This document shows, in pieces, positions 6,825 through 59,295 of a stretch of 64,000 nt of DNA; position 1 is the stretch's first letter, and each line of letters begins with the position of its first letter. Source of the stretch: Crateriforma spongiae (GTDB taxonomy: Bacteria; Planctomycetota; Planctomycetia; Pirellulales; Pirellulaceae); the NCBI RefSeq assembly GCF_012290005.1, contig NZ_JAAXMS010000002.1:806001-870000 (forward strand), given 5' to 3'. A program made the translations under genes and the position numbers. The notes under the pieces are model-generated. The model was not told the DNA's origin. It saw nothing but the letters and a program-made list of their open reading frames with translations, and made no database searches.

Positions 6825-7175
6825 ATGAACGACTGCAACCCCGAAATAGACGCCCAACTGAACGCACTGAGTGATCTGTGCTGCGAAACGCTGGGAACCG
6901 AACGAACATTGGATCCCGATCGTGTTCAGCGTCTGACCAAGGCCTTGTTGATGAGCGGGTTTGTTCAGAAGGATTCGCAACCGCTAAGCGCGGAAATCGG
7001 GTCGCGTGCGCGGAACCGGTGCCTGGACACCGCGATGCACCGGGGCGGCGAATTGAAGGCAATCACCGAATCGATTCAGAAAGCTTTCAACCGGCAAGTC
7101 ACCTGGGAAAGCGTTCAGCCGTCCAAAGACAGCGGCACACGACCGGCAAACATCAGCTCGGCGACCGACGCCTGA
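6825..7175 (+). CDS. Hypothetical protein, 116 residues
   Basis: A small soluble protein with no signal peptide or membrane segment. It opens with an acidic helical segment (EIDAQLNALSDLCCETLG) and continues with a second amphipathic helix (DPDRVQRLTKALLMSGF). It is not recognised. Support is limited to an uninterrupted frame, a plausible GCAGG upstream of ATG 6825, and position between other genes. It converges with the GH117-like gene ending at 7220. Confidence 0.45.
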   Translation: MNDCNPEIDAQLNALSDLCCETLGTERTLDPDRVQRLTKALLMSGFVQKDSQPLSAEIGSRARNRCLDTAMHRGGELKAITESIQKAFNRQVTWESVQPSKDSGTRPANISSATDA

Positions 7176-7204
7176 CCCACGCGCCGGTCTGCCAAACCGA
7201 TGAC

Positions 7205-7219
7205 CTTCGGCGACCGAAG
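7205..7219. terminator. Small hairpin between convergent genes
   Basis: CTTCGG (7205-7210), CGA loop, CCGAAG (7214-7219) gives a 6 bp stem exactly between the stops of the genes ending at 7175 (+) and 7220 (-). No T run follows on either strand, so intrinsic termination is only possible, not shown. Confidence 0.25.
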
Positions 7220-8560
7220 CTATTCCGCCAAATCCTTTTCGGCCGCGTCGATCAGCTGTTTTCGCTTTCCCGCATTGACTTGGCTATGAAAGTAGACCTC
7301 CGGCGGAAACCAATGTTCGGGCTCCTTCATCCACTCATCGTGAACATCCAGGCTCAGATCACAATCAAAACGGTACAGGATGCTGTGTTTCTTGTCCTTC
7401 GTTCCGGCACCGGTGTGATGGCATAGTCCCCAGGTGATGCCACGCCCGTTGTCGTTACCATCGAATGCATCGGGGACATAGGGGCCCGATGCGATGGGCA
7501 TCAGGCTGACGCTGGAAGCCACTTGAAAATTGACGCCATCGGGTGCGTATTGAATCGTGTTGTGTTCGTTCCCGTGGCGAATCACCATCGCGGCGATTCC
7601 TTCTTTGAACGGAAACAGCCCCGTTTCATGCCCCGAGTTCAGCACCGGATTCAACGGATGCTTGGTGTAGGGGCCCAGTGGATTGTCGGCGATCGCCAGG
7701 CCCGTAAAGCGAACCGGTCGTGGCTTCCCGTTCGCTTCGGACTTGTAGTACAGATAGATCTTTCCCTTATAAACCAGAGGGTACGGATCGTGAATCGAGT
7801 ACTGGTCCCATTGCCCTTTCGACCCGTTGGGAATCACAACGTTACCGACCGCATGCCAGGGCCCATCGGGTGAATCAGCCCAGGATGCGGTGACCGGACA
7901 ATCGTCACCGCGAGTCCCCGACATTTCCAAAAACGCTTGATAGAAAAGGTAGTACTTGCCTTTCCAAACCAAGACATCGGGAGTGGATACCGAACGCCAG
8001 CCCGCTTGCGGCTTCGGCGGACGTTTGACGGCAACACCCTGTTCTTTCCAAGTGAAACCGTCTGTGCTGGTGGCATACCAAATTTCGGCCAGATCCCAGT
8101 CGGTCGACGGAATGACATCGGTTCCACCCGCCGCACCACGGGGCGGCGTCGGCGTGCTGCGATGCGTGTACCAGACGTAGTATTTGCCGTTCGCCTTGAC
8201 GATCTTGGAAGGATCGCGACGTGAAATCGTTCCGTCGCCGTCGTGATAATCCAGACCTTCGATGGGCGAATGCCGAAACTTGGTGAACAGTTCGTTGTCC
8301 CACGTCGACGGGGCGATGTACTGCTCGTAAGCCCGCTCCATCGCAGCGCTCAATTCCATGTCGGGTTTCTCCGCCGGCACACCATACGGATACACCGTGT
8401 CCTGGGCGGATGCGGTGACAGCAACGACCACCACCAGGCTGGCCATCGACCAGCGAAGGCCTTGGGTGCAGGCGGCGAAGGACCGGGCGACGTGGTGTCG
8501 AGTCTTCGGCGATGGTGTGCCCAGATCGCTGGGCGGGGCGGGACGAACGGATCCACTCAT
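7220..8560 (-). CDS. GH117-like alpha-1,3-(3,6-anhydro)-L-galactosidase
   Basis: A 446-residue exported protein. The N-terminus is long and basic before a hydrophobic core (WSMASLVVVVAVTASAQ), consistent with a Sec signal. The mature part has the GH117 five-bladed propeller pattern: GTISRRDPSKI with the presumed catalytic Asp, DPYPLVYKGKIYLYYKS, and NSGHETGLFPF with the His thought to act as acid. GH117 enzymes release 3,6-anhydro-L-galactose from the non-reducing end of neoagaro-oligosaccharides. CAGGAGA precedes ATG 8560. The upstream region contains a palindrome ATTGTCGACAAT (8665-8676) shared with the sulfatase promoter at 54815. It is closely similar to the protein at 12393-13667 over the whole catalytic domain. 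Family assignment is from recalled motifs. Confidence 0.8.
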   Translation of the reverse strand: MSGSVRPAPPSDLGTPSPKTRHHVARSFAACTQGLRWSMASLVVVVAVTASAQDTVYPYGVPAEKPDMELSAAMERAYEQYIAPSTWDNELFTKFRHSPIEGLDYHDGDGTISRRDPSKIVKANGKYYVWYTHRSTPTPPRGAAGGTDVIPSTDWDLAEIWYATSTDGFTWKEQGVAVKRPPKPQAGWRSVSTPDVLVWKGKYYLFYQAFLEMSGTRGDDCPVTASWADSPDGPWHAVGNVVIPNGSKGQWDQYSIHDPYPLVYKGKIYLYYKSEANGKPRPVRFTGLAIADNPLGPYTKHPLNPVLNSGHETGLFPFKEGIAAMVIRHGNEHNTIQYAPDGVNFQVASSVSLMPIASGPYVPDAFDGNDNGRGITWGLCHHTGAGTKDKKHSILYRFDCDLSLDVHDEWMKEPEHWFPPEVYFHSQVNAGKRKQLIDAAEKDLAE

Positions 8561-8664
8561 GGTGAAGATCTCCTGAGTCAAAATCGTCATAAGGTGGGGC
8601 CAGATTAGGTGGGCTGTGACGAAGCATCCCGATTCCCGGACGATCGCCACGACCCTGATTGTAA

Positions 8665-8676
8665 ATTGTCGACAAT
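8665..8676. promoter_or_regulatory. Palindromic operator candidate ATTGT-CG-ACAAT
   Basis: A perfect 12-base palindrome located 105 bases upstream of the GH117-like start codon at 8560 (minus strand). The same half-sites with a 2-base spacer occur at 54815-54826, 96 bases upstream of a sulfatase gene. Inverted TTGT-N2-ACAA sites are typical of GntR- and LacI-type repressors. The cognate regulator is unknown. Confidence 0.45.
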
Positions 8677-8813
8677 CGTTTGCCAAGCGAATGCCCGGAT
8701 CTACATTGTCCGCGAAGCCCGATCGTCAAACTTGCCGACAAGCCGGATGTCGATGGCCTGCCCCGACCAACGTATACAACCCGGTGGTGCAACTGGATTT
8801 CGGCTCAAGAGGT

Positions 8814-9150
8814 GAGCGGCAAGGCGCTAGCCGCCGGTAACCCACCACATGAGCGGCAAACCGCCAGCCGCCGGTAACCCACCACCACATGAGCGGCAAG
8901 GTGCTAGCCGCCGGCAACCCAACACCACATGAGCGGCAAGGCGCTAGCCGCCGGTTCCCCACCACCACATAAGCGGCAAGGCGCTAGCCGCCGGTAACCC
9001 ACCACCACATAAGCGGCAAGGCGCTAGCCGCCGGCAAACCAACACCACATGAGCGGCAAGGCGCTAGCCGCCGGTAACCCAACACCACGTAAGCGGCAAG
9101 GCGCTAGCCGCCGGTAACCCAACACCACATGAGCCGCAAACCGCCGCACC
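8814..9150. repeat. Tandem repeat, 40-bp unit, about 8.5 copies
   Basis: Units begin at 8814, 8851, 8891, 8931, 8971, 9011, 9051 and 9091, with a decayed copy from 9131. The first unit is 37 bases (three missing from the ACC run), the rest 40. Each starts GAGCGGCAAGG or AAGCGGCAAGG, continues CGCTAGCCGCCGG, and ends with an AACCC-ACCACCACAT-like tail. GCGGC and GCCGC within the unit can pair as a hairpin. Units differ by only a few substitutions, so the array is recent or homogenised. It lies in the 755-base gap between the GH117-like gene and a sulfatase. No unique spacers are present, so it is not a CRISPR array. No protein is supported in it. Confidence 0.95.
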
Positions 9151-9315
9151 TCATCGACAATGCCGGCAATCAGCCGGTACCGATTCCTTCGGCGAACGAA
9201 AAATGACGTTCGCCTCTCGACAATTGAAATTTGACGCACCACCAGCCGACCGGTTGGACACCAAGTTACGCCGACCTTCGAATCCCCTTCCCCAGCCTGC
9301 CCCAACCGCACCGTG

Positions 9316-16654: not shown

Positions 16655-17761
16655 TCAGCGCAGCCGTCGACCGACTTCGCGCAAGGTGGCAACATCGTCG
16701 GGATGAATCGATCCGTCGGGCAAAGGCCCGGTGTTCAGCAACAGGTTGGCCGGAATCTGTGATGCTTTGTCCAGCATCTGCATCACTTGGTCAGCCGACT
16801 TGTGCTTGCCGTTGTCGCTTTCCTTATAGCCCCATCCGTGCGGCTGCAACGTGTCACACAACTCCAGCGGAACATCGGATTCGCCCTTCCAGTTTCGCTC
16901 GGGCGCTTTGAAGTCCTCGTTTCCCAACAGCCCTTGCTTATACGACACCAACACTTGCGGCTGCAGCGACCAGATGTGTTCGTACAGTTCCTGGGTCTTA
17001 AACTGATCGATCTTGTTTTGCCGCGACTTGGGAACCCCGATGCCGTCCAACCAAATCCCCGCGATCGGTCCGTAATTGGTCAACAATTCGGTAATCTGGT
17101 TCTTCATGAATTCGACGTAGATCTGAAGATCATGCGTTTTGCCTTGCACATAATGCGTCTCCGGCGGATCGTACTTGGGTCGCGCGGAACCACCCCAACC
17201 CCAGTTGTTGGGCGCGTGGGGATGCCGCCAGTCGCGACCATGCGAATAGTACAAAAAGAACGCCAACCCTTTCGCTTGGCATTGCACGGCCAACTCCGCT
17301 ACCAAATCACGCTTGGCCGGTGTGTTGGTGCTCTTAAATTCCGTGTACTTCGAATCAAACAGGCAAAAGCTGTCGTGGTGACGAGTCGTGATGTTGATGT
17401 ACTTCATTTCCGCATCGAGCGCCAAATCGGTGATGAAGTCGGCATCGAATTTTTCCGCCGTAAAACGATCCGCCAGTTTCGCGTAGTCGGCGACACGAAT
17501 TTTTTCATTGATCTGAACCCATTCGCCTCGGCCCAACAGTGAGTACAAGCCGTAGTGCAGAAACAGACCAAATTTGGCGGATTCAAACCACTCAATCGCC
17601 GCACCGCGTGGGTCCTTTGCGTAAGCGGCCTTCATGCCAGCCAAGTAGGAAGGCGGATCCGCAGACGTTTCGTCCGCCGTGCAGCGATCGACCAAGGAAA
17701 GCGTTGACGCGGCAAAGGCCGCCTGAAGGGCTTGTCGACGATTGAACTTTTGTGAACACAT
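16655..17761 (-). CDS. GH29 glycosidase (alpha-L-fucosidase or alpha-L-galactosidase), Tat-exported
   Basis: A 368-residue GH29 enzyme, last gene of a four-gene minus-strand operon. The N-terminus MCSQKFNRRQALQAAFAAST carries a twin-arginine motif, unlike the Sec signals of its two paralogues. GH29 marks: WFESAKFGLFLHYGLYSLLGRGEW, TTRHHDSFCLFDSKYTEF (substrate-binding His-His), FYYSHGRDWRHP-like FFLYYSHGRDW, and AGIWLDGIG with the nucleophile Asp239. It is shorter than the paralogues and lacks their C-terminal sandwich domain. GH29 cleaves alpha-L-fucosides, and some members act on L-galactose in porphyran. Start 17761 has GAGAG upstream; a 19-residue longer reading has no support. Confidence 0.9.
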   Translation of the reverse strand: MCSQKFNRRQALQAAFAASTLSLVDRCTADETSADPPSYLAGMKAAYAKDPRGAAIEWFESAKFGLFLHYGLYSLLGRGEWVQINEKIRVADYAKLADRFTAEKFDADFITDLALDAEMKYINITTRHHDSFCLFDSKYTEFKSTNTPAKRDLVAELAVQCQAKGLAFFLYYSHGRDWRHPHAPNNWGWGGSARPKYDPPETHYVQGKTHDLQIYVEFMKNQITELLTNYGPIAGIWLDGIGVPKSRQNKIDQFKTQELYEHIWSLQPQVLVSYKQGLLGNEDFKAPERNWKGESDVPLELCDTLQPHGWGYKESDNGKHKSADQVMQMLDKASQIPANLLLNTGPLPDGSIHPDDVATLREVGRRLR

Positions 17762-17834
17762 CGAACAGACTCTCGTTCTTTGATGGGTGATCAACAAGGC
17801 GGGCGGAACGCAAAACAATCGATGGCGACGCTTG

Positions 17835-19586
17835 CTAGGGTTGCTTCACTTCGGTCAGTTCGACCTGGCGCAGATTCATCGGATTCCAATGGTCCACATC
17901 GGGTCGCAAAGTGATTCGAATCTTGCCTGAGTCCGAAATCGTCATCATCCCCAGATCGACCTCCGCATAGTTGCCATAGCCTCCCGTCGACGACGCGATA
18001 GCGTGAAGCGATTCGCCTGGTGCCGTGACGATGAATCGAGTCTGGGGTTGCTCGACCGACAATTCGGCACGAACCCGGAACGTTGCCGGATGATCCAATT
18101 CGACGTTCCATTCCAGCCAAGCCTGTCGATCGTGCCAGTACCCGATATGCGGTAGGTCGTCGTGGTATCGGATCCCCGCCTGGCGTGCACCTTCGTTGTT
18201 GTGGATATAGGCGTCACGGGCGTTCAGCGTCAGCCTTCCGTTTTCATCCGGGTGCGGCAAACGCTTCTCGATCTTCAGTTCGCCCTCCACTTCCAACACG
18301 ATCACCGATGCAATGTCGTCGGGTGCCTCCATCGGCAGGGATACTGACACGCCCTTGTCCGTGTTTTCGGCCATGAGCGTCCGACCGTCGGCCAGCAAAC
18401 GGGCTTCGCGAACGTTGTTCTTCAACTCGGGAACCGTCAGCACCGGATCATCCGGCCAGTCAAAGACGTGCAGAAACAGACGCGTGGTTTCGCCGGTCGT
18501 CTTCATGGTGCACCGTCCCCATGTCAAATCCGACAACGGACTGGCTTGGGTACCTTCGATCGACTCCCGATTCACCTTCATCCATTGACCGATTCGTTTC
18601 AGCCTTTCGACCGCTTGGGGCAACAAGTCGCCACGTCCGGTCGGACTGACGTTCAACAAATAGTTTCCGCCCTTGCTGGCGATGTCGATCAGGTTGCGGA
18701 TCAGCGTCTCGGATGACTTGAAATCCTGGTCGATTGCTTTGTAGCCCCAACTGCCACTGATGGGCATGCAGACTTCCCAGTCTTGATCCGCCGGCGGCGT
18801 GTCAGGAATGTGACGTTCGAATGTCTTGTAGTCACCCGGATAATCCTCGCCCAGTCGATCGTTGGTGACGACGTTGGGCTGTAATCGCGTCAATGAATGT
18901 AGGCTGTCGAACGATTCGCGACTCATTTTCCGAGGCGTGTCCCACCAAAAGATTCCGATCGGCCCATATTCGGTCAGCAGTTGCCGGACCTCCGGAACAG
19001 CTTTTTCACGCACATAGATATCGCTACTGACCCGCTGAAGGTCCTTGTCCCAGTTGTTCCCGAAACCACCGGGATGGTGCCAGTCTTGCGCTTGCGAATA
19101 GTAGAAACCGAAGCGGATATCTTGCCGCTGACATTCTTCGGCCAACTCTTTCATGATGTCGCGACCAAAGGGGGTCGCGTCGACCACGTTGAACGGATTG
19201 ACGTGCGAATCAAACATCGCAAACCCGTCATGATGCTTGGCGGTGATGATCAGGTACTTCATCCCCGCTTCCTTGGCCAAGCCGACGAACTGCGCAGCGT
19301 CAAATTCAGTCGGGTTGAATCGAGCCGCATACTGTTCGTATTCGGCAATCGGGATCTTGCCTCGGTTCATCATCCATTCGGCGCTGTTGGGCAATTCTTC
19401 GCCGCGATAGCGTCCGCCGGTCACCGAATAGACACCCCAGTGGACGAACATGCCAAACTTGGCTTCGCGCCACCACGCCATGCGTTGATCCCGATCGGAA
19501 CTCGGGTTTTCGGCAACCGCGGGTGCCGAGGTCAGCAAAGATGTAACAGCGAATAGACACAAACAGGCGAACGTTGAATTTCTCAT
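17835..19586 (-). CDS. GH29 glycosidase with C-terminal beta-sandwich domain
   Basis: A 583-residue exported GH29 enzyme. Signal peptide ACLCLFAVTSLLTSAPAVA; then MAWWREAKFGMFVHWGVYSVTGG, IITAKHHDGFAMFDSHVNPFNVVDATPF, FYYSQAQDWHHPGG, and IGIFWWDTPRKM with the nucleophile Asp near residue 216. Residues about 350-430 are the usual GH29 beta-sandwich, and about 440-583 form an extra carbohydrate-binding-like module. It sits 7 bases after the stop of the upstream GH29 gene. ATG 19610, which overlaps that gene by 17 bases, is an alternative start without a ribosome site, whereas 19586 has AAGAG upstream. Fucose versus L-galactose specificity is open. Confidence 0.92.
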   Translation of the reverse strand: MRNSTFACLCLFAVTSLLTSAPAVAENPSSDRDQRMAWWREAKFGMFVHWGVYSVTGGRYRGEELPNSAEWMMNRGKIPIAEYEQYAARFNPTEFDAAQFVGLAKEAGMKYLIITAKHHDGFAMFDSHVNPFNVVDATPFGRDIMKELAEECQRQDIRFGFYYSQAQDWHHPGGFGNNWDKDLQRVSSDIYVREKAVPEVRQLLTEYGPIGIFWWDTPRKMSRESFDSLHSLTRLQPNVVTNDRLGEDYPGDYKTFERHIPDTPPADQDWEVCMPISGSWGYKAIDQDFKSSETLIRNLIDIASKGGNYLLNVSPTGRGDLLPQAVERLKRIGQWMKVNRESIEGTQASPLSDLTWGRCTMKTTGETTRLFLHVFDWPDDPVLTVPELKNNVREARLLADGRTLMAENTDKGVSVSLPMEAPDDIASVIVLEVEGELKIEKRLPHPDENGRLTLNARDAYIHNNEGARQAGIRYHDDLPHIGYWHDRQAWLEWNVELDHPATFRVRAELSVEQPQTRFIVTAPGESLHAIASSTGGYGNYAEVDLGMMTISDSGKIRITLRPDVDHWNPMNLRQVELTEVKQP

Positions 19587-19593
19587 CTCGGTC

Positions 19594-21393
19594 TTACTCT
19601 TGATTTGCATCGTTCATCAGTTCAACGGGATCGAATTGGATGGATTTCAGACTGGCCGATTCCACATCACCGTCGATGCAGCGGGCGAACACTGAATAGG
19701 TTCCCGGGTCTGGAAACGATAACCAACCGATCGGAAATGCTTGGTAGTTGTGCGACGCGTTCTGTTGATTCTGGATTCTTTCGCCACCGTCGATGCCCAC
19801 CTGCCATACCAACCGTCCCGTTCCGGAGTAGACCAAATCGACTTGGTAGGTGCCGGCGCGATGTACATCCAGTTTCCAGACGGCCCGACCGTCGCCATCA
19901 AAATCATGGACGTGAACGACGCCCTTCCATTCGCCAAACTTTTCCATCCAGCGACGCTTCTCCTTCACCGCATGATCGGCTTCGGCAAACTCTGCCAAAA
20001 CTTCGGTGCCTTGTACCGGGTCGATGGCCCAAATCGGATCCACTTCCGGCGGTGATTCCAAATCCAGCTGAATCACTGACACCAAAGGATCGACCGGACG
20101 TGGTGGTAATTCGATGACCGCCCAATCCTGCTCGCTTCGAAACGGCAGCGAGTCGGAAGACTCTGCACCGAGCAACCGGGCCGATTGAATCGACGTCATC
20201 AGATTCGGGACATACAAGCGTCCGTCATCGGGCCAGCGGAACACACACAAGAACAGGGTGTTGTCCTTGCGGGTCACATCACCCCAAGGCAACGCATGCT
20301 GCCACGGAGATGCATCGGTCCCGTAGATCACTTGTGGATAACGATGGATCCAGTCGCCCGCCGCTTTCAGGGATGCGACCGCCCGGCCAGGCACGCTGCC
20401 ATCGCCTTTGGGGCCGATGTTCAGCATGTAGGTGCCACCGCGACCGACACATGCGACCAATCGCTTCAAAATCTCCTTGGGAGATTTCCAGTTTTCGTCA
20501 TACCATGCGTAGGCCCAGGAATCGTTGGTGGTATCGACACTTTCCCACATCCCGGGAACGTTCTCCTGCGGGACCTCCATGTCGCCCAGCGTTTGGTAAT
20601 CGCCTAGACCGTGTCCGGCGCGACCGGACACCAAAGCGTTCGGCTGGTTTTTGTGGACCAGTTCCACGAGTTGCTGGACGTACTTTTTGGGCATCTTCCC
20701 AGGAGTATCGAACCATACCAATTCGATCGGACCGTACTTGGTCGTGATTTCATTGACTTGCGGTAAGCACTTGTTCGCGAAATAGTCGTCAAAGGTTGCC
20801 GGTTTGCCCTGATCGTCCACTTTGGGACCGTTGCCACCGCCGGGGAACGTCCAATCCTGGTTATGCGAGTAGTAAAAGCCGATTCCCAGTCCCGCGTCAC
20901 GGCACGCATCGGCCAGTTCCCCCATCGGATCACGGTTCCAAGGGGTCGCATCGGCGATGTTGAAATCACAGACATCCGAATCGTACATCGCAAAGCCGTC
21001 GTGATGCTTCGCGGTGATCACGATGTATTTCATCCCCGCGTCTTTGGCGATGGCGACGATCTTTTTGGCATCAAAGTCCACCGGATTGAACCGCTTGGCC
21101 AATTGCTTGTACTCGTCGACGGGAATACCGGCCATGCGTGGGTTCATGATCCATTCACCGATGCCGTAATAGGTCTTTCCGTCGACCTGATTACCCAACA
21201 TCGAGTACAGTCCCCAATGAATGAACATCGCATAGTTGCCTTCGTCGAACAGTTGCCCCCGGCGGGCGTTTTCGGCACGAAGCTTCACTACCGATTCGCC
21301 CCACATCTGATCCATCGCCTGTTGGCCTTGGACAGTGGCGTTCTGGGCCGCAACGGTCAAAACGGCGACCAACAACAGGACAAAGTTTCGCAT
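19594..21393 (-). CDS. GH29 glycosidase with C-terminal beta-sandwich domain
   Basis: A 599-residue exported GH29 enzyme, second gene of the operon after L-fucose isomerase. Signal peptide MRNFVLLLVAVLTVAAQNA. Catalytic-domain marks: YAMFIHWGLYSMLGNQVDG, VITAKHHDGFAMYDSDVCDF, GFYYSHNQDWTFPGG, and IELVWFDTPGKM with nucleophile Asp229. A C-terminal domain (about 460-599) reading AGTYQVDLVYSGTGRLVW...YQAFPIGWLSFPDPG resembles the sugar-binding sandwich found in many Bacteroidetes and Planctomycetes fucosidases. GAAGGGAAG lies just upstream of ATG 21393. It should release terminal alpha-L-fucose or alpha-L-galactose in the periplasm or outside the cell. Confidence 0.92.
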   Translation of the reverse strand: MRNFVLLLVAVLTVAAQNATVQGQQAMDQMWGESVVKLRAENARRGQLFDEGNYAMFIHWGLYSMLGNQVDGKTYYGIGEWIMNPRMAGIPVDEYKQLAKRFNPVDFDAKKIVAIAKDAGMKYIVITAKHHDGFAMYDSDVCDFNIADATPWNRDPMGELADACRDAGLGIGFYYSHNQDWTFPGGGNGPKVDDQGKPATFDDYFANKCLPQVNEITTKYGPIELVWFDTPGKMPKKYVQQLVELVHKNQPNALVSGRAGHGLGDYQTLGDMEVPQENVPGMWESVDTTNDSWAYAWYDENWKSPKEILKRLVACVGRGGTYMLNIGPKGDGSVPGRAVASLKAAGDWIHRYPQVIYGTDASPWQHALPWGDVTRKDNTLFLCVFRWPDDGRLYVPNLMTSIQSARLLGAESSDSLPFRSEQDWAVIELPPRPVDPLVSVIQLDLESPPEVDPIWAIDPVQGTEVLAEFAEADHAVKEKRRWMEKFGEWKGVVHVHDFDGDGRAVWKLDVHRAGTYQVDLVYSGTGRLVWQVGIDGGERIQNQQNASHNYQAFPIGWLSFPDPGTYSVFARCIDGDVESASLKSIQFDPVELMNDANQE

Positions 21394-32049: not shown

Positions 32050-32329
32050 CGGAAAAGACCACAAAGCGGCGGATCAATCGAACGGTTTGGTGTGGAATTC
32101 CATGCGACATTTGACCGGCAACCGGGCCAAGTTTTCTGAACTTGCGGGGACACCCCAACCCCACCCGCAAGGAAAAGTTCCGCTAGCTAGGGACGGTTTT
32201 TCCGCTCAAGCGTGACATTCTGTCGCACATGTCGCACCTAAAGGTAGAGCAATGAAGCATCCAAGCCGTTGCTGAACCACCGCTTTTCCCCCTCCTCCGC
32301 TTCTCTGTCCACTCCGCAAAGGTGCCGTG

Positions 32330-34684
32330 ATGTCAGACCTTTGGAATCGCTGGATTCGCCGTCTCCGCCCCAACACAAACGTTCCGCGTCGACGCAAGAC
32401 GCGACGCCGAAAGATGCGCAGCGAAGCGTTGGAATCTCGACGTCTTCTGGCCGCCAATCTGTTCCATAACCAAGCCATCCCCGAGGACGTCAATGAGGAC
32501 GGACAAGTCACGGCGATCGATGCGTTGACCATCATCAACCAAATGAATCGGCGACAGTCCAGTGCCGATGCCGACAACGAGCCGCGGGGTCGCGGGCGTA
32601 TGACCGACGTGAATAACGATGGCCGCGACACGGCTCACGACGCTCTTCTGGTAATCAATCGTTTGAATCGCGAGCGCAACCAATCGCGACCAGATAGAGA
32701 CGATCAAGCTCCCGTCGCCGACCCGCCGACCGAAACGCCTGACGAAGATCCCTTAACCACCACGGAGGTCCAGTCGATCGACGGGACCGGAAACAATCTG
32801 GAAAACCCTGATCTGGGGGCTGCGGACACAGAATTGCTTCGGGTTTCCGAAGCCGATTATGCCGACGGAATTTCACAGCCCGCCGGCGAGGACCGCCCGA
32901 GCGCACGCGAGATCAGCAACACGCTTTCCGCCGCGGATCCCGAAGGCACCACCAGCGACCGTGATCTCAGCTCCTTTGTTTTCGCTTGGGGACAATTCTT
33001 AGATCATGACATTGATCTGTCACTGGAACCGGAGACCGACGGCACCGCCTTTGACATCCAAGTGCCCACGGGCGATCCTTTATTTGATCCGCTCGGCACC
33101 GGTGAAGCAACGATTCACCTGACTCGATCCGAATTTGCCGATGGAACGGGAACGTCCACCGAAAATCCGGCCGAACAAGTCAACGCGATCACCGCGTGGA
33201 TTGATGGTTCACAAATCTATGGCAGCGATCAAACGACTGCGGATTCCCTGCGTGAATTCGTCGGCGGTCGGCTATTGATCACCGACGACGGATTGCTTCC
33301 CAGCGACGAAAACGGTGGCATTCTGGCGGGAGACATTCGCGCCGCCGAAAACATCATGCTGACATCGATGCATGCCCTGTTTGTCCGGGAACACAACCGA
33401 TTGGCGGACGAAATTTCCGCCAGCGATCCGACCTTGACCGACGAACAGATTTATCAAGAAGCACGGGCGACGGTGATCGCTGAATTGCAATCGATCACCT
33501 ACAACGAGTTTCTGCCCGCATTGTTGGGCAACGATGCGGTTGATCAATACGTCGGCTACAACGCCGATGTCGACCCGTCCATCGCCAATGAATTTTCGAC
33601 CGCGGCTTTTCGATTCGGGCACAGCACACTGAACGACACGTTCCGCATGGTCGGCGATGACGGAAGTGATATTGATGAAGCGATCTCCCTGGCCGATGCA
33701 TTTTTCCAACCTGGCGTGCTGAAAGAAACGGGTATCGAGCCTTTACTGAAATATGCTTCGTCGACACTTTCACAAGAAGTCGATCTTGAAGTGGTCGACA
33801 GCCTACGAAACTTCTTGTTTGGCCCCCCCGGTGCCGGCGGTCTGGACCTGGTTTCGCTAAACATCCAACGTGGCCGCGACCATGGGCTGGCCGACTACAA
33901 CTCCGTCCGCCAAGCGTATGGCTTGGAACCGGTCGACACCTTTGACGCCATCACGAGCGACAGCGTTCTGGCGGCGAATTTGGAATCCCTGTATGGCAGC
34001 GTCGACAACATCGACCTGTGGGTTGGCTTGTTGGCTGAAGACGCCACCGAAGATGGATCACTGGGCGAAACCGCAACGACCATCATCGCCGACCAATTCG
34101 AACGACTGCGTGACGGCGATCGTTTCTGGTACCAGAACACGCTTAGCGGAAGAGAGTTGCGGGAAGTTGAAAACACAACGCTGGCGGACATCATCGATCG
34201 AAACACGGAACTGACGACGTTACAGGAAAACGTGTTTTTCTTTGCACCGGAGATCAGCGGCACCGTGATGGCGGAATCCACTAGCCGCGACGTGACCTCG
34301 CAATCCACCGATCCGCTGCAAGCCGTTGTCGATGAATCCGAACCGATCAGCGAAGCGGACCTGGAGCTGCTGGCCCGTGACCAGGGAAATGATCGGCGGC
34401 AAAACGACGACCGAAAAGATCGCCGGAAGGAAACCGACGGCGATTTGGATCCGATGGCCGGTGCAACGTTGCAGTTGCTCGATAGCGATGGCAACGTCGT
34501 CGACGTCGCGATCACCGACGATCGAGGCAACTACAGCTTTGCAGAGATCGATCAGTCGGGAACCTACACCATCCAGATGTTGCCATCCGATCTCTACAGC
34601 GTGATCGGAAATGAAACGCTTCAGGTTCAGGTCACCGACGGCGACGTCGATATTCGCGACATGGATTTTCGTGTCGTTGTCTGA
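32330..34684 (+). CDS. Secreted animal-type heme peroxidase with dockerin-like and SdrD-B-like domains
   Basis: A 784-residue surface protein. The N-terminus is highly basic and ends in SEALESRRLLAA, the planctomycete LE-x-R-x-LL export motif, rather than a normal signal peptide. Residues 53-75 and 93-115 form two dockerin type I calcium repeats (DVNEDGQVTAIDALTIIN, DVNNDGRDTAHDALLVIN). The peroxidase domain (about 145-665) has distal His226 in WGQFLDHDID and proximal His431 in FRFGHSTLND, plus ENIMLTSMHALFVREHNRLA. The C-terminus (GATLQLLDSDGNVVDVAITDDRGNYSF) is an SdrD B-like/CNA-B-like sandwich. Peroxidases of this family oxidise halides or phenols with hydrogen peroxide. It is divergent from the ECF sigma gene. 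Confidence 0.92.
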   Translation: MSDLWNRWIRRLRPNTNVPRRRKTRRRKMRSEALESRRLLAANLFHNQAIPEDVNEDGQVTAIDALTIINQMNRRQSSADADNEPRGRGRMTDVNNDGRDTAHDALLVINRLNRERNQSRPDRDDQAPVADPPTETPDEDPLTTTEVQSIDGTGNNLENPDLGAADTELLRVSEADYADGISQPAGEDRPSAREISNTLSAADPEGTTSDRDLSSFVFAWGQFLDHDIDLSLEPETDGTAFDIQVPTGDPLFDPLGTGEATIHLTRSEFADGTGTSTENPAEQVNAITAWIDGSQIYGSDQTTADSLREFVGGRLLITDDGLLPSDENGGILAGDIRAAENIMLTSMHALFVREHNRLADEISASDPTLTDEQIYQEARATVIAELQSITYNEFLPALLGNDAVDQYVGYNADVDPSIANEFSTAAFRFGHSTLNDTFRMVGDDGSDIDEAISLADAFFQPGVLKETGIEPLLKYASSTLSQEVDLEVVDSLRNFLFGPPGAGGLDLVSLNIQRGRDHGLADYNSVRQAYGLEPVDTFDAITSDSVLAANLESLYGSVDNIDLWVGLLAEDATEDGSLGETATTIIADQFERLRDGDRFWYQNTLSGRELREVENTTLADIIDRNTELTTLQENVFFFAPEISGTVMAESTSRDVTSQSTDPLQAVVDESEPISEADLELLARDQGNDRRQNDDRKDRRKETDGDLDPMAGATLQLLDSDGNVVDVAITDDRGNYSFAEIDQSGTYTIQMLPSDLYSVIGNETLQVQVTDGDVDIRDMDFRVVV

Positions 34685-38960: not shown

Positions 38961-39521
38961 ATGAACCCGGACATCACGCGAATACTCTCGGCCATCGAAA
39001 GCGGCGATACCAAAGCCGCCGATGATCTTTTGCCGGTCGTCTATGACGAACTTCGGCGTCTGGCCGCCAGCCGAATGAATCAGGAGAAGCCCGGGCACAC
39101 GTTGCAACCCACGGCTTTGGTTCATGAAGCATTCCTGCGTTTGGTCGGTGGCAGCCGACCGCAACAATGGGACGGACGAGGACACTTTTTCGCCGCAGCC
39201 GCCGAAGCGATGCGACGAATCCTGATCGAAAACGCACGTCGGAAAAGTCGCGACAAGCGTGGTGGCGATTGGGTGCGTCAAGAAATGGACGACGCCCTGG
39301 TGGCGGTGACCCCGGACAATATTGACGACCTACTAAGTCTTGATGACGCACTGACCAAACTTGCCGACGAAGATCCCGAGTTGGCAAAGTTGGTGGAACT
39401 GCGTTACTTCACAGGACTGACCATCGAAGAAACAGCCGAAATCCTGGGCGTTTCTCCCCGGACCACCAAACGGAATTGGGCATACGCCCGAGCTTGGTTG
39501 CAGCGAGAGATGGATCAATAG
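38961..39521 (+). CDS. ECF sigma factor, TIGR02999 (planctomycete kinase-associated) type
   Basis: A 186-residue sigma factor. DLLPVVYDELRRLAASRMNQEKPGHTLQPTALVHEAFLRLV is the family-specific region 2, and FFAAAAEAMRRILIENARRKSRDKRGG is the characteristic linker. Region 4 reads LVELRYFTGLTIEETAEILGVSPRTTKRNWAYARAWLQREM. These factors are expanded in planctomycetes and acidobacteria and are usually encoded next to a Ser/Thr kinase that has a TPR or WD tail. Here the only kinase lies 1.9 kb away on the other strand, so the pairing is suggestive but not adjacent. It converges with the sulfatase-esterase fusion gene (15-base gap). Confidence 0.95.
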   Translation: MNPDITRILSAIESGDTKAADDLLPVVYDELRRLAASRMNQEKPGHTLQPTALVHEAFLRLVGGSRPQQWDGRGHFFAAAAEAMRRILIENARRKSRDKRGGDWVRQEMDDALVAVTPDNIDDLLSLDDALTKLADEDPELAKLVELRYFTGLTIEETAEILGVSPRTTKRNWAYARAWLQREMDQ

Positions 39522-39536
39522 CGCGCCCGAAGACGG

Positions 39537-41822
39537 CTATTGTCCGTTTTTCTGCCCGGCTTTTGCTTTCAGGTGCTTCTGAAAGAAACGATCCGCGTCG
39601 TTCAACATCGTGTCGAACCAACGCTGCTTGCCCACAAACGCATGCGGCGCTTCTGCGATGACAGTCAGCCCGGTATCAATCCCCAATTCATCCATGCGTT
39701 TGCGAAAGCCATCCGCGTGAGTGCTGGGATCGTCCAATGCCCCCGTCACAAACCAACACGGTGGGTCGCCGTCATTCAAATGAAACAACGGTGATGCCAA
39801 CTGGTAATTCGATTCGTTTTGGTCCAACGAACCGTCCAAAAACTGTCGCCAGATTTCCCCCCGGCTGGCGCTGGCGGACACGGTGCGGGTCCGCTCCGAT
39901 AACAGGTCCGTTTGGGCACCCATGGGTACCGCGGCCTGGATCGCGCTGCTGAACTGGGGATTTCCACCGCTTCCTTCCAACCTTTGCACGCCCGCGGAAG
40001 TCGCCAGCAGCGCGGTCAGATGGCCGCCAGCCGAAAGTCCCATCGCGCCGATGTGATCAGGATCAATCCCATACTCTTTGGCATGGGCACGCAAGTAACG
40101 CACCGCCGCTTTGCAATCGTGAATGGCTGCGGGAAAGGACGCTTCGCCACTAAGTCGATAGGAAATCGTTGCTGTCACGTATCCACGCAAAGCAAGTGAT
40201 TGCGCCATCGCCCGATGACTTGATCGATTTCCTTTGTACCAACCGCCCCCGTGAATGCAGACGACCGCGGGCAATGTCCCCCATGAAGAACTTGGGCGAT
40301 AGATATCCATCGCCAACTGTCGATCATCGTACTGCGCATACACCACGTCCGTCTTTGCATTCAATCGATCCAACTGATCCGCCGTGACCCGTGTCCGGCC
40401 ATTCGCTTGTTTGGGAACAACGACGCCCGCCGGCCGCGCATCCCGTCGCATTTCTTCTTGAAACAGAACCGCCATTCCCCGCAACTTTCGCAAGATCTCT
40501 CCGTTGCGCACCGGCTTCGTTTCGCCCGGATCTTTCGCCAAGTCGTACAAGGTCAAACTTGGATTCAGCACAAGCTTCCAATTTCGCCACCTCACCGCAG
40601 CCAGGGCGCCTTGGCTGCCATGATAGAAAAATGCGTCAAAGTATTCGTTGCGATTGATCATTGACGCCCATTCCCCAGGGGGTTCGAAGCGACGCCGCAA
40701 TGGAACCGTCGCGTTCAAGGACATCTTCAACCCCGGGGGCGGTACCAATATGGTTTCTCCGGTCAGCAATGGCGTCAAATCGCGTCCATCAATGACTCGA
40801 TCCGTTGGAACCGGCACTCCGGCAAAGGTCGCCAGCGTCGGATACCAATCCATCGCTCGCGTCACGGCACCGGACACCAATGACTTGGTAATCCCGACAC
40901 CCGGCCCCCAAGCGATCGCGGGAACTCGAATCCCACCTTCATAAGTGGACAACTTCCGGCCTTGCATTTTCTGGTCGGGCGTGCGACCGGGGCCTCGCCC
41001 ATTGTCCGACGCGTAGACGATCAACGTGTTGTCGTCGATGTCCAGATTCTCGAGTTCATCGACAATCCGTCCGACATGAAAATCCATCTCCTGAATCGCA
41101 TCTCCATAATCGCCCCAGTGCGAGGTGCCCTTGAACTCCGGACCCACTCCCAACGGGTTGTGCAACATCGTGTGGGCTAGGTAGACAAAGAACGGCCCGT
41201 CACGATGATCCCTGATGAACTTGATCGTCTCGTCGGTATAAAGCCGCGTTAGCTCCGACGGATCCGCCGGTCGTTTGACGACTTGATCTCCCCGCATCAA
41301 AGGCACACCGCCCTGATCGTCGAAATAGACGACCTCCACCGGGTCCAGGTTATGCAACAAGCCGTAATAGTGATCGAAGCCTTGTTGAAGCGGCAAGAAT
41401 GGCGGATGAAAACCCAAGTGCCATTTGCCGACGCATGCCGTGGCATACCCCGCCGATTTTAATAATTCTGCCAGAGTCAATTCATCGGGGTGAATCCCGG
41501 TATTCGAATCGGCGCGATGAACCCAGATGTGGTTCCCAACGCGTCGCGGATAACATCCCGTTAACAACCCCGCTCTTGATGGACTGCAGATCGGTGCCGC
41601 GGCATAGTAGTCCGTCAACCGCACACCTTGTTCCGCCAAGGCGTCGATTCGAGGTGTCTGGACCTCTGTTGCGCCATAGCAACCAAGATCGTAATAACCC
41701 TGGTCATCGACAAAGATGAGTACGATGTTCGGATTTTCGGCACCCACACAATTGCGTGGGGCATTCACCGATCCAAGCAAAGCCACCAAAACCGCGAACG
41801 GAACGAACGAGCGATGGTCCAC
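39537..41822 (-). CDS. Sulfatase-esterase fusion protein
   Basis: A 761-residue exported two-domain enzyme. Residues 1-30 are a signal (FAVLVALLGSVNA); about 30-465 form a complete S1 sulfatase: NPNIVLIFVDDQGYYDLGCYG, ICSPSRAGLLTG with formylglycine Cys79, CVGKWHLGFH, and TLIVYASDNGRGPG. Residues about 490-755 are an alpha/beta-hydrolase of the BD-FAE/HSL type: VCIHGGGWYKGN oxyanion loop, MGLSAGGHL (Ser597), GALDDPSTH (Asp697/698) and EAPHAFVG (His727), so both active sites look intact. Start GTG 41822 has AGAGG 6 bases upstream. The protein could remove sulfate and acyl groups from one sugar unit. It is divergent from the next sulfatase. Confidence 0.93.
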   Translation of the reverse strand: MDHRSFVPFAVLVALLGSVNAPRNCVGAENPNIVLIFVDDQGYYDLGCYGATEVQTPRIDALAEQGVRLTDYYAAAPICSPSRAGLLTGCYPRRVGNHIWVHRADSNTGIHPDELTLAELLKSAGYATACVGKWHLGFHPPFLPLQQGFDHYYGLLHNLDPVEVVYFDDQGGVPLMRGDQVVKRPADPSELTRLYTDETIKFIRDHRDGPFFVYLAHTMLHNPLGVGPEFKGTSHWGDYGDAIQEMDFHVGRIVDELENLDIDDNTLIVYASDNGRGPGRTPDQKMQGRKLSTYEGGIRVPAIAWGPGVGITKSLVSGAVTRAMDWYPTLATFAGVPVPTDRVIDGRDLTPLLTGETILVPPPGLKMSLNATVPLRRRFEPPGEWASMINRNEYFDAFFYHGSQGALAAVRWRNWKLVLNPSLTLYDLAKDPGETKPVRNGEILRKLRGMAVLFQEEMRRDARPAGVVVPKQANGRTRVTADQLDRLNAKTDVVYAQYDDRQLAMDIYRPSSSWGTLPAVVCIHGGGWYKGNRSSHRAMAQSLALRGYVTATISYRLSGEASFPAAIHDCKAAVRYLRAHAKEYGIDPDHIGAMGLSAGGHLTALLATSAGVQRLEGSGGNPQFSSAIQAAVPMGAQTDLLSERTRTVSASASRGEIWRQFLDGSLDQNESNYQLASPLFHLNDGDPPCWFVTGALDDPSTHADGFRKRMDELGIDTGLTVIAEAPHAFVGKQRWFDTMLNDADRFFQKHLKAKAGQKNGQ

Positions 41823-41987
41823 GTTTGACCTCTAGGTACGGCGAATCGAAAACGATGTGGGGACAATTCTAGCAGCGTTGATTCGGCCACGGGCCACAAT
41901 CGACAACACCCCGAACTCCGCGATCGATATGCTAGGGATCGACATGTCCGGTTGCCGCCCCAACACCCCACCCCAAGAGTGTTTGCA

Positions 41988-43487
41988 ATGCTTTTTCACC
42001 GTCACTGGTTGCTGGTCTCGTTCTGTATCTGCATCACGATCGGGGGTGCCGAAACCGCCGGTGCCGATTCCCTGACCGGCAGTCGGCCGAACATCTTGCT
42101 GGTGATGACCGACGACCAGGGCATGGGCGACCTGTCTTGCATGGGGAACCCGGTGTTGCGGACGCCGAACTTGGACAAGTTTCATTCGATGTCGATGCGG
42201 TTCACCGACTTTCATGTCAGCCCGACCTGTGCCCCCACCCGCAGCGCGATTTTCAGCGGACGTCACGAGTTTCGAAACGGCGTGACCCACACCATCAAGG
42301 AACGGGAACGAATGGCCCTGTCCACCACCACGTTTCCACAGCTATTGCGGCAAGCCGGATATGCCACCGGAATCTTTGGAAAGTGGCACCTTGGCGACGA
42401 AGACGAATACCAGCCTTATCAACGCGGATTCAGCGAAGTCTTCATCCACGGCGCCGGCGGAATCGGCCAATCGTTCCAAGGTAGCTGCGCCGATTTCCCG
42501 CCGAACCGCAAAGCAGACCAACGCTATTTCGACAACGTGATTCTGCACAACGACACCATCGTTCAGACCCAAGGATTCTGCACCGATGTGTTCTTTCAAG
42601 CGGCACTCGGATGGATCCGCGATCAACAACAATCCGGTACACCCTTCTTTGCCTACGTGTCGACCAATGCACCACACGGCCCCATGATCGCACCCGAACG
42701 TTATAAGAAGCGATTTGCCGACATGGGTTGGGACGGGAATACCCAAGGTCGCTACGGGATGATCGAGAACATCGATGACAATTTTGGTCGGCTGATGCAA
42801 AAGTTAGACGAATGGGAATTGTGGGAAAACACGCTGGTGATTTTCATGACCGACAACGGGCAGGCGGGACGCAGCGGCAAACGGAACGGCAAACCCACCC
42901 CGCTGTTTACCGCCGGTTTTAAAACTGGCAAAGGATCACCCTACGAAGGCGGTACCCATGTCCCGGCGTTCTGGCGATGGAAAGGCAAGCTACCCGAAAA
43001 TGCCGATGTCGATGCGTTGACGGCTCACATTGATCTGTACAAGACGTTCTGCGATCTCGCGGGCGTAAAGATTCCGGCGGATGCCCAAGCCATTGATGGA
43101 CGAAGCCTGCTGCCGTTGCTGGAAAATCCTCAATCTGAATGGGCCGATCGCGAATTGTTCGTGCACGTCGGACGCTGGAAAAAAGGCGCCGATCCGAACG
43201 ACAGTCGCTATGACAAATGCGCCGTGCGGACCGCACGTTGGCGTCTGGTCAACAACAACGAACTGTTTGACATTCGTTCCGACCCCAAAGAATCCACCGA
43301 CGTCGCCGACGCCCATCCGGACGTCGTTCAACGATTGCGGACCCTCTACGATCAATGGTGGAACGAGACGCGACCGCTGATGGTCAATGAAGATGCCCCC
43401 TATTGCCCCGTCCAACCACAAGCCGTCCGTTACGAAAAGCAATTGGCGGAATCCGGCATTCCAGATTGGCAGGCACCTTCGCTGTGA
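41988..43487 (+). CDS. Sulfatase (S1 family)
   Basis: A 499-residue exported sulfatase with signal LLVSFCICITIGGAETAGA. Motifs: RPNILLVMTDDQGMGDLSCMG, TCAPTRSAIFSG with Cys81 (Thr in place of the usual Ser of CxPSR), IFGKWHLGDE, and TLVIFMTDNGQAGRSG. The segment GSPYEGGTHVPAFWRWKGKL and the terminal ELFDIRSDPKESTDV are typical of arylsulfatase-A-like enzymes. The start at 41988 gives a proper signal peptide; the frame is open 12 codons further upstream. It is divergent from the sulfatase-esterase fusion with a 165-base shared promoter region, and converges with the Gfo/Idh/MocA gene. Confidence 0.92.
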   Translation: MLFHRHWLLVSFCICITIGGAETAGADSLTGSRPNILLVMTDDQGMGDLSCMGNPVLRTPNLDKFHSMSMRFTDFHVSPTCAPTRSAIFSGRHEFRNGVTHTIKERERMALSTTTFPQLLRQAGYATGIFGKWHLGDEDEYQPYQRGFSEVFIHGAGGIGQSFQGSCADFPPNRKADQRYFDNVILHNDTIVQTQGFCTDVFFQAALGWIRDQQQSGTPFFAYVSTNAPHGPMIAPERYKKRFADMGWDGNTQGRYGMIENIDDNFGRLMQKLDEWELWENTLVIFMTDNGQAGRSGKRNGKPTPLFTAGFKTGKGSPYEGGTHVPAFWRWKGKLPENADVDALTAHIDLYKTFCDLAGVKIPADAQAIDGRSLLPLLENPQSEWADRELFVHVGRWKKGADPNDSRYDKCAVRTARWRLVNNNELFDIRSDPKESTDVADAHPDVVQRLRTLYDQWWNETRPLMVNEDAPYCPVQPQAVRYEKQLAESGIPDWQAPSL

Positions 43488-56778: not shown

Positions 56779-56919
56779 CGTTCCTTCTTCCTGCGGCTCG
56801 TCGCATCACGGATCATCCCGCCCGGCCTCAACAACTGTACTGTCCCCAATCAATGCATGTCGCGTGTCGACAGACGCGGACCTGCGGATCACCGTTCCCC
56901 CGATCCCCACCACGTTCGA

Positions 56920-59295
56920 ATGTTTGCATCCTTCGCCCAACAACGCCCGACCTTGATGATTGTGTCGGCGGCCTTCTTGGCCACCATCTGTCCAGTGCAT
57001 GGCCAGCAACTAAGCCAAGAAGGCTTGGCACAACAAGCGACGCATCAATTTCTGTTTGACGACTTTGCCAAAGACCGCCAAACAACGTTCACCGGCAATG
57101 GGCGTGATCGTGGATTGAAAGAGCTGACGATTCTGACCGAAACGCACCAGATCGGCGACGGTGACGAAATCCTGTTGCCCGAGGGTGCTGAACGGATCGC
57201 CGGACTGTTCCGTCACTTTGCGTTTCATGGCGAGAACTTGCATCGTATCGCCGAAGTTCGAGTGTTTCCGTTTTCGCCCGACAAAGCTCCGCCGCGTAGC
57301 AAACAAGTCGAAGACTTTTATCGCGTTCAGATGCCATCGATTCCGCTGATGGACGCGCCACCATCACGAATGAAGATGCGTTTTCTGATGAAGCAAGCGA
57401 ATGACACCTGTCGCGTTGACGACTTGGTCTTCATTGCTCAGAAAGCGATTCCACCACAATTTGACACGATCCCCTATCGCGACCTGGGATCAGAATTCCC
57501 TCGTGAACGGGTGGAAATCCAATTGGACACCGATCACGAATTGTCGGTTGGTGGAACCAGCCGTCTGCAACGTGATCGATGGTTTCGAATGCACGAAACA
57601 CCTGGAACCGTCGATGCCACGTTTGAAAATTGGGCCGCCCAGCGCGGATTCCTGACCGGTCGTGGTGCGTTCAAGTTCAATCCGGGACTGACCCGCAGTT
57701 GGGGCGGGTCCGAGGTTCTGCAGGAAAGCAAGACACAGCCCGGCGCCGCTGACATGAGCTTTTTTGATCGCTACGACGCCGGCGAACGTTTGCGAAAGGC
57801 GATCCCGCTGTACCAAGAAAAGCCGTTTGCGTGTTGTTTCAACGACTGGCCTGATTTCATGTCCGTGCCCTTGGTCGGCCGTGGCACACCTCAAGTGGAA
57901 CACTTTGACGATGCCGCGGAATTGGCGGCCGCTCTGGTCGCCGAACAGATCAAGGACGCCGGTTACAGCGCCCATTGGTGGGAAGTCAAAAACGAAAGCA
58001 GTGTCCAATCCGAATGGGCCCACCACTGGCAGGAAAGCAAGGGCATCGACGGCTGGGGATTGCTTGCCGATTTTCACAATCGTGTCGCGGACGCCGTCCA
58101 TCAGCGTTCGCCCGAAACCCAAGTCGGCGGTCCATCATCGGCCTACATGCAACTGCAAGTCAAAGACTTTGATCTGTATCGCAACCAAGCCCGGTTCATC
58201 GAAGAAACGCGTGGCCACATTGATTTCTTCTCGCATCACTTTTACGAAAACGCGTTGATGCTGGGTGCTCACGAGCGTCGTGGGCTGGGATATTCGAACT
58301 ACCTGCTGGGCCGATACGAAGCCATTCTGGATATGCTTCGTGCGCACATGCACAAGGTCGACAATGTGTTGCCGATCCTGATCACCGAATGTGGTTCGCT
58401 TCAAAACGGTCGCCAGCCATCGGACAATTGGCTTCGGCTTTACGCCTGGAACGCCTATCTGAATAAGTCGATGCAGCGTCCCGATCAGATCGACTTGTTT
58501 GTTCCATTCATTTTCTTGCACATGTCGTGGAACCCCAACAGCGGCGATGCCGCATTCACCCCCAAAACGGATCGCGACCGCCATCGAACGATCGACGATT
58601 TTGATCGCACAACGGTGTCACGCTACTTTGATCTGTGGAGCGACTTTGACGGGAACCGGTTGCCGGTCGACTTCCAACGCGATTGGTTGGACGTCGTTGC
58701 CGTGCACGACGGTGAACGTGTCTCCCTGGCGGTGACCAACATGGGTGGACGACAAATCGCGATCGATTTATCGAAGGTTGCCCAACGCGTCGGTGCGAGT
58801 GCCGCGACACAGACTCGGCTGAATTACCATCGTGGCCAAGTCGTCTTTGAACCGGAACATACCGTGGACGCGTCGAAGATCCCCGTCGATGTCAACGAAA
58901 CCACGGTGATTCGGCTTTTGTTGCCCCAGCCGCTTGCCCCCACGGGAACACTGGCAATGGATCGAAATTATGCCCATGCGACGGCGATCAAAAGCGACGG
59001 CCAATCCAAGACCTTCCGAATCAACGTTTCCGACGCGGCACGGGTCAAACACGCCAAACTGATTGTCGGTATGCATCGAAGTGGCGGCATCACGGAACCT
59101 TTGGCCGTTCAAATCAATGGCACGCCGGTTTCAATTGATACCGGCGACGCCGATGAGTTTTCCGAATTCTTCGCACCACTGGACGCGACCATTCGTCCAT
59201 CGTTGGTTCAGCAAGAAAACCAGATCGACATCGTCGCCCAACCCGGGGCGACAATCACATCGGTCCAGTTGCAAACGCTAAGCGACGCGAACTAA
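56920..59295 (+). CDS. GH86-like beta-agarase/beta-porphyranase
   Basis: A 791-residue exported enzyme. Signal MIVSAAFLATICPVHG. After an N-terminal beta-rich domain (about 40-200) comes a TIM-barrel-like region with WWEVKNESSVQSEW (acid/base Glu359) and VLPILITECGSLQ (nucleophile Glu490); the 131-residue spacing is near that of characterised GH86 porphyranases. The C-terminal 250 residues are two beta-sandwich domains, as in GH86 enzymes. It should cut beta-1,4 bonds in agarose or porphyran outside the cell, producing oligomers for GH117 and GH29. ATG 56920 starts the signal; ATG 56857 is 21 codons further upstream. GH50-type agarase is the main alternative. Confidence 0.7.
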   Translation: MFASFAQQRPTLMIVSAAFLATICPVHGQQLSQEGLAQQATHQFLFDDFAKDRQTTFTGNGRDRGLKELTILTETHQIGDGDEILLPEGAERIAGLFRHFAFHGENLHRIAEVRVFPFSPDKAPPRSKQVEDFYRVQMPSIPLMDAPPSRMKMRFLMKQANDTCRVDDLVFIAQKAIPPQFDTIPYRDLGSEFPRERVEIQLDTDHELSVGGTSRLQRDRWFRMHETPGTVDATFENWAAQRGFLTGRGAFKFNPGLTRSWGGSEVLQESKTQPGAADMSFFDRYDAGERLRKAIPLYQEKPFACCFNDWPDFMSVPLVGRGTPQVEHFDDAAELAAALVAEQIKDAGYSAHWWEVKNESSVQSEWAHHWQESKGIDGWGLLADFHNRVADAVHQRSPETQVGGPSSAYMQLQVKDFDLYRNQARFIEETRGHIDFFSHHFYENALMLGAHERRGLGYSNYLLGRYEAILDMLRAHMHKVDNVLPILITECGSLQNGRQPSDNWLRLYAWNAYLNKSMQRPDQIDLFVPFIFLHMSWNPNSGDAAFTPKTDRDRHRTIDDFDRTTVSRYFDLWSDFDGNRLPVDFQRDWLDVVAVHDGERVSLAVTNMGGRQIAIDLSKVAQRVGASAATQTRLNYHRGQVVFEPEHTVDASKIPVDVNETTVIRLLLPQPLAPTGTLAMDRNYAHATAIKSDGQSKTFRINVSDAARVKHAKLIVGMHRSGGITEPLAVQINGTPVSIDTGDADEFSEFFAPLDATIRPSLVQQENQIDIVAQPGATITSVQLQTLSDAN

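Follow-up and report, generated by a model that had tools for sequence, protein, structure and literature searches.

Crateriforma spongiae carries a gene that appeared to encode a sulfatase and an esterase in one secreted protein, which raises the question of whether the two enzymes are truly fused and, if so, whether the fusion means that they share a substrate. We addressed this starting from the stretch of 64,000 nucleotides that surrounds the gene (hereafter the window), using the gene itself, its homologs in other genomes and a structural model of its product.

Results

Two complete enzymes in a single open frame

The fusion gene (39537..41822, minus strand) starts with GTG and runs through 761 codons without interruption, a single open frame for a protein of 761 aa that is found fused in the same way in relatives. 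Coordinates, strand and frame agree with the original prediction, which had placed both enzymes in one protein and had pointed to residues 465–490 as the site where a frameshift or assembly error might have created the fusion; we checked the frame and it has no break there. Residues 1–28 (41739..41822, minus strand) form a hydrophobic N-terminus that reads as a probable Sec signal peptide, and judging from the look of this segment, the protein is probably secreted. These 28 codons change fast relative to the copy from the same genus (L031; dN/dS of 1.0, based on few changes), and residues 1–27 have pLDDT below 50 in our AlphaFold2 model. All NCBIfam matches of the protein fall below the curated cut-offs, so there is no named equivalog for it.

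The first half is an S1-type sulfatase domain (residues 29–468; 40419..41738, minus strand), as assigned from PF00884 (residues 31–336, 1.5e-53, far above the cut-off) and from structural alignment of the model. Residues 27–469 adopt the sulfatase fold, aligning with human steryl sulfatase, GALNS and arylsulfatase A with best Z scores of 33–34 over about 375–383 residues. The expected formylglycine residue is Cys79 (41586..41588, minus strand) in the CSPSR motif at residues 79–83, which matches the sulfatase signature of a Cys in C-x-[PA]-S-R: across 40 aligned rows, 33 have CSPSR and 4 have CSASR (3 are gapped there). By motif position, the metal and sulfate ligands are Asp39, Asp40, Arg83, Lys133, His135, His217, Asp273, Asn274 and Lys290, whose roles we take to be those of their counterparts in arylsulfatase A. 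In an alignment of 25 fusions, hand-picked from those found, this ligand set is unchanged (Asp40 nearly so, with one X), and Cys79, Arg83, Lys133, His135, His217, Asp273, Asn274 and Lys290 are invariant in 25/25. The predicted complete sulfatase motif with its metal ligands is thus borne out by the alignment. A formylglycine-generating enzyme is probably available as well, given that PF03781 exceeds its cut-off at six places in the C. spongiae genome, each of them a candidate. Several kinds of sulfatase score alike with this domain in both sequence and structure comparisons; assignment to a SulfAtlas S1 subfamily by fold was set aside as the structural scores are too close together.

The second half is a BD-FAE/hormone-sensitive-lipase-like esterase domain (residues 483–761; 39540..40376, minus strand; PF20434 and PF07859). 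PF20434 (BD-FAE) covers residues 505–698 (5.2e-48, far above the cut-off), and the C-terminal part of the model fits Lip_vut4, the gut carbohydrate esterase 6tkx and the CE domain of 6mly at Z of about 30–31.5, which identifies an alpha/beta hydrolase fold (6nkf, 31.5; 6tkx, 30.7; 6xyc, 30.4). All the hallmarks of this group, HGGG(W), G-x-S-A-G, Asp and His, are present, and at the positions originally given. The HGGGW oxyanion-hole motif (residues 524–528; 40239..40253, minus strand) is present in 31/31 rows with letters there, from 40 rows in total; the GLSAGG motif, of the form G-x-S-A-G-G, places the nucleophile at Ser597 (40032..40034, minus strand) in the alignments; and His727 (39642..39644, minus strand) is the likely catalytic base. 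Ser597, Asp697, His727 and HGGGW are each invariant in 25/25 aligned fusions. The original prediction left the acid as Asp697 or Asp698; among the 25, the former never varies and the latter is nearly but not fully invariant, which makes Asp697 (39732..39734, minus strand) the likelier catalytic acid.

The junction (residues 469–482; 40377..40418, minus strand) is the gap between the structurally aligned domains. A linker of about 25 residues had been proposed; it is, if anything, shorter, as the alignment with solved sulfatases extends to residue 469 and that with most solved esterases starts at residues 469–483 (6nkf aligns earlier than most, from residue 450). All eight sulfatase-only orthologs from the family search end exactly at the junction or within a few residues of it on either side, and two stand-alone planctomycete esterases can be aligned to the "linker" sequence through their N-terminal portion. 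The two domains are therefore fused nearly end to end.

Both halves look to be under purifying selection, as estimated from one pair, the window gene and its same-genus copy L031 (Nei-Gojobori): for the sulfatase (439 codons) dN/dS is 0.073, for the esterase (265 codons) 0.101 and for the junction (22 codons) 0.289, the last with few changes. The AlphaFold2 model, built on 33 sequences, has a mean pLDDT of 77, with values below 50 at several active-site loops (for example 75–86, 273–297 and 526–530). Its pTM is 0.62, and we read it one domain at a time.

The fusion is widespread

In the family search (149 genomes of the same family, including C. spongiae; matches counted at E ≤ 1e-90), 52 genomes had a match and 29 had the fusion: 27 intact, one truncated where its contig ends (L057) and one split between two contigs, a single one of which carries the fused part (L061/L070). 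Sulfatase-only orthologs, at 65–73% identity, were found in eight of the 149 (L058, L059, L060 and L062–L066), and esterase-only relatives at the same threshold in two (L067 and L068), the L067 genome carrying a fusion as well. A draw of 392 genomes from the phylum, overlapping with the family draw and searched at E ≤ 1e-105, returned nine matching genomes, comprising two already counted, four more fusions (L071–L074) and three sulfatase-only loci (L075–L077). The fused frame was also present in 41 of the 76 loci returned from a collection of named genomes, some of them cut by contig ends; outside these 41 is L106, from a MAG, where a stop interrupts the sulfatase half. Some contigs of the named-genome set equal contigs of the family set in length, so the counts of the two sets are not additive.

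The fusion loci belong mostly to Planctomycetota, with a few records named Verrucomicrobiota. Examples are Roseiconus nitratireducens JC645, with two copies (L078 and L119), Stieleria tagensis TO1_6 (L090) and Planctomycetes bacterium CA13 (L084, on an 8.6-Mb contig), along with three MAGs labeled as Verrucomicrobiota or as a group within that phylum (L088, L107 and L111). The sulfatase–esterase fusion is real and conserved. Absence from all related genomes, which would have counted against the prediction, was searched for and the fusion turned up in many; the family, phylum and named-genome searches rule out that it is confined to this genome.

Within the C. spongiae assembly (6.87 Mb, 97.8% complete), the fusion protein has 208 matches at E ≤ 0.001, some of which are pieces of one gene; most of those listed cover the sulfatase half. 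Among the matches listed, only the window's copy of 18 BD-FAE matches coincides with a sulfatase match. On plasmids, 80% coverage of the query at one place was reached in 2 of 1373 matching records, and two of the plasmid hits (H1 and H2) were inspected; none of 86 matching phage records reached that coverage.

Origin and loss of the fusion

We built a quick tree of the sulfatase domain (89 rows, rooted on two distant sulfatases from the C. spongiae genome), for which the program warned of long branches that meet. Its deep branches are sulfatase-only proteins (Verrucomicrobiota, Pontiella and some Planctomycetota), and the 61 rows labeled as fusions, including the stop-containing L106 and the partial L061, fall within one branch of 71 rows (SH-aLRT 90) alongside eight sulfatase-only and two contig-cut rows. 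Seven changes of the fusion label are needed on this tree, of which the starred branches force only one. We then removed seven rows (two outgroups, two contig-cut rows and three distant tandem sulfatases) and constrained the 61 fusions to group together among the remaining 82, which was not rejected (p-AU 0.343). One fusion event therefore fits, the number of losses is unsure, and nested loss of the esterase is not forced as the sole reading of the tree. In the esterase tree (71 rows and one very distant outgroup, with an unsure root), one starred group is made up of 12 verrucomicrobial rows that are unfused or have another fusion partner, and the two esterase-only rows from planctomycetes nest among the fused ones (99, starred), as though they had been split off from a fusion.

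One esterase loss is seen directly. In the Mariniblastus MAG locus L133, fragments of the esterase with broken frames and missing domain parts lie at 8750–9211, behind an intact sulfatase-only ortholog. Overall, it looks as if a stand-alone sulfatase and a stand-alone esterase were joined once, long ago, and the resulting architecture was lost again in at least one lineage.

Unfused pairs and other partners

Of 15 loci with an unfused or otherwise fused relative of the esterase, four verrucomicrobial ones (L126, L134, L136 and L138) have a sulfatase gene immediately upstream in the same orientation, and the other 11 have no sulfatase in that position. Three of these four are close kin in the sulfatase tree, so they perhaps represent only two independent cases. 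Other arrangements include L120, with a distant esterase-like stretch (8386–9129, about 29–31% identical) upstream of its sulfatase-only gene; Persicobacter, where a distant sulfatase and an alpha/beta hydrolase adjoin, 48 bases apart; and Halomontanus, where the two are near each other in the opposite order with one gene between. That the two enzymes are also encoded by adjacent but separate genes in other genomes suggests a functional connection between them.

The esterase also occurs with other domains, as seen in a survey of seven long frames chosen by length among the matches listed. Two genomes of the family encode a BD-FAE esterase behind an SMP-30/gluconolactonase-like (SGL) domain (L160:2055-3791, minus strand, 44% identical to the window esterase; L162:2161-3948, minus strand, 37%), and in the verrucomicrobial L143 (1115-4147, plus strand) a 51%-identical esterase follows an N-terminal half of another kind, for which Pfam gives no match at 1e-5. 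On visual inspection, that half resembles a LamG or 3-keto-disaccharide-hydrolase-like domain. More distant BD-FAE domains are joined to 3-keto-disaccharide hydrolase (L156), PQQ repeats (L157 and L158), DUF5077 and other hydrolase domains.

Gene neighborhood

A Pfam scan of 29 distinct window ORFs identified ten sulfatases, counting the fusion, together with two alpha-L-fucosidases, a GH43-like protein and a beta-helix protein. The fusion gene is flanked by a divergently transcribed second sulfatase (41952..43487, plus strand; Pfam), and a sulfatase is also at the neighbor position in the same-genus genome. On its other side is an ECF sigma gene (38961-39521), which, being on the opposite strand and directed towards the fusion gene, we did not count in its operon. 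Elsewhere in the window, 9313-30038 holds a run of sulfatases with the two alpha-L-fucosidases (16655-17818 and 17835-19610), the GH43-like gene, an AraC/XylR-type regulator and the beta-helix protein, which has a PDZ match; this region looks like a sulfated-polysaccharide locus. An animal-type heme peroxidase with a dockerin match is encoded at 32327-34684 (plus strand), with sub-cut-off matches to SdrD_B-like and planctomycete extracellular-signal models, and an 812-aa protein at 56857-59295 (plus strand) matches the beta-porphyranase A C-terminal domain just at the cut-off and has no other Pfam match at 0.001.

We clustered the neighbors of 42 fusion loci (41 and the window; up to 10 kb on each side, many cut by contig ends) at >42% identity and scanned with Pfam the clusters in at least five loci and one smaller cluster, so a rarer partner could be missed. 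Seven clusters recur in at least five loci: DUF1501 (17 loci), PSCyt/PSD1 (11 and 5), sulfatase (9), alpha/beta hydrolase (7), FG-GAP repeats (5) and one without a Pfam match (6). None of the seven is a glycoside hydrolase or lyase by Pfam, and the DUF1501 and PSCyt clusters are absent around the window's copy. At 9 of the 42 loci, the window's not among them, a PSCyt1-PSCyt2-PSD1 gene and a DUF1501 gene precede the fusion on the same strand (L089, L095–L098, L107, L119, L122 and L129, several of which are close kin); in L097, for example, the former is at 4676-7579, followed by the DUF1501 gene. We considered reading the substrate from the neighborhood and set this aside, as the window's sugar-enzyme genes are not matched by a recurrent glycoside hydrolase or lyase across the 42 loci.

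Discussion

A complete sulfatase and a complete serine esterase are encoded and conserved as one polypeptide. Our preferred interpretation, to which we assign a probability of roughly 60%, is an exported bifunctional enzyme that trims polysaccharides. After export, Cys79 would be converted to formylglycine; the first domain would then hydrolyze a sulfate ester on a glycan, the second (Ser597-His727-Asp697) would take an O-acyl group, most likely acetyl, off the same kind of glycan, and tethering would bring the two debranching activities together. By sequence and by fold, relatives of the esterase include carbohydrate esterases. The original prediction went further, stating that the fusion implies one substrate with both sulfate and an acyl ester, or obligate consecutive action. 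This is plausible, but "implies" does not follow in light of the sulfatase-only orthologs, the decayed esterase in one lineage and the esterase's other partners; the sulfatase-only orthologs and other esterase fusions indicate that neither half needs the other. More tentatively, and with the odds against it, the family may be a dedicated deacylase-desulfatase in which the esterase acts first, removing an acyl group (probably O-acetyl) adjacent to the sulfate that blocks the sulfatase and then passing the sugar to the attached domain.

The alternatives differ in how much of this architecture they take at face value. That the gene is an artifact, whether a frameshift, a missed stop or an assembly join of two adjacent genes, can be ruled out for practical purposes: a stop does occur in the sulfatase half of the MAG locus L106, but the window gene has nothing comparable, and dozens of independent assemblies, named strains included, read through the same junction. 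It is also highly improbable that the first domain acts without any involvement of sulfate, as one of the phosphatases or phosphonate hydrolases that belong to the sulfatase superfamily. Members of this superfamily are catalytically promiscuous, which would allow this, and there is a weak match to Phosphodiest (PF01663), below its cut-off, yet the best-matching solved structures are sulfatases and both CSPSR and the sulfatase ligand set are present. Hardly more credible is that one domain is a passive remnant, serving as a binding or folding aid to the only active enzyme. The decayed esterase of Mariniblastus indicates that this half can be dispensable, but the triads and metal ligands are invariant in 25/25 aligned fusions and dN/dS is low in both halves.

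A more serious contender, if still an unlikely one, is loose modular tethering, in which both domains are active on different bonds of a mixed polymer or on different substrates and the fusion fixes only co-secretion and stoichiometry. It would account for the sulfatase-only orthologs and for esterase relatives fused to SGL domains or to the unmatched half of L143, as well as for the more distant BD-FAE domains with 3-keto-disaccharide hydrolase or PQQ repeats; sulfatases too have many partners in Planctomycetes, as described earlier (PMC4807772). However, the same pairing is kept across many genera and unfused pairs occur in tandem, which is more than indifferent tethering would need.

The bifunctional trimming enzyme that we favor offers a specific and widely conserved test case for whether sulfated glycans are protected from desulfation by acyl groups, a possible reason for their slow breakdown, and the sulfatase-only orthologs and split tandem genes are ready-made natural controls. 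If deacylation has to come before desulfation, the presence of the family in both Planctomycetota and Verrucomicrobiota would be a sign that a glycan with acyl and sulfate groups together is common in aquatic settings; if the domains are independent, the fusion is an example of the free mixing of enzyme modules in these bacteria.

Comparison with known systems

Each half has relatives with solved structures. The sulfatase shares its fold (over ~360–380 residues) and motif set with arylsulfatase A, GALNS, steryl sulfatase and the S1_16 and S1_19 carrageenan sulfatases. Identity to solved sulfatases is about 25–34% in structural alignments, so their substrates cannot be carried over, and unlike the fusion, their aligned chains end with the sulfatase. 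The esterase shares its fold with the rumen Lip_vut4 (6nkf), the gut carbohydrate esterases 6xyc/6tkx and the CE domain of 6mly at ~26–28% identity; 6mly (GH43-CE) also combines two enzymes and has its CE at the C-terminus, although the partners, and probably the acyl targets, of all these differ from those of the fusion. Much closer are the stand-alone esterases of Verrucomicrobiaceae (L126, L134–L142 and L145), which are 49–54% identical to the fused domain (five aligned) but are separate genes, those of L126, L134, L136 and L138 immediately following a separate and more distant sulfatase gene.

As for the fusion itself, the open-licence literature yielded, among the titles and abstract beginnings of the matches listed, nothing on a sulfatase–BD-FAE fusion family, and the word "fusion" is absent from a review (PMC9096561). 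Sulfatase–glycoside hydrolase fusions were described for Kiritimatiellales and Planctomycetes, the partner being used to guess the substrate (PMC6388578, 2019). These likewise join a sulfatase to a sugar-directed enzyme, but a glycoside hydrolase points to a sugar and the esterase here does not. Closest is a study of two Porphyra planctomycetes, whose multi-domain sulfatase genes it put at an estimated 34 and 21, with esterase/lipase named as one of the partner domains (PMC4807772, 2016). At 761 aa, our fusion is similarly a long (>600 aa) planctomycete sulfatase with a second domain; the likeness to the esterase case is by description, as the part of that study drawn on here gives no gene, distribution or active-site analysis for it. 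Sulfatase–"esterase/lipase" fusions were thus already mentioned for Planctomycetes, and what we add is the wide distribution of this fusion, the conservation of its active sites, its possible single origin and an observed loss.
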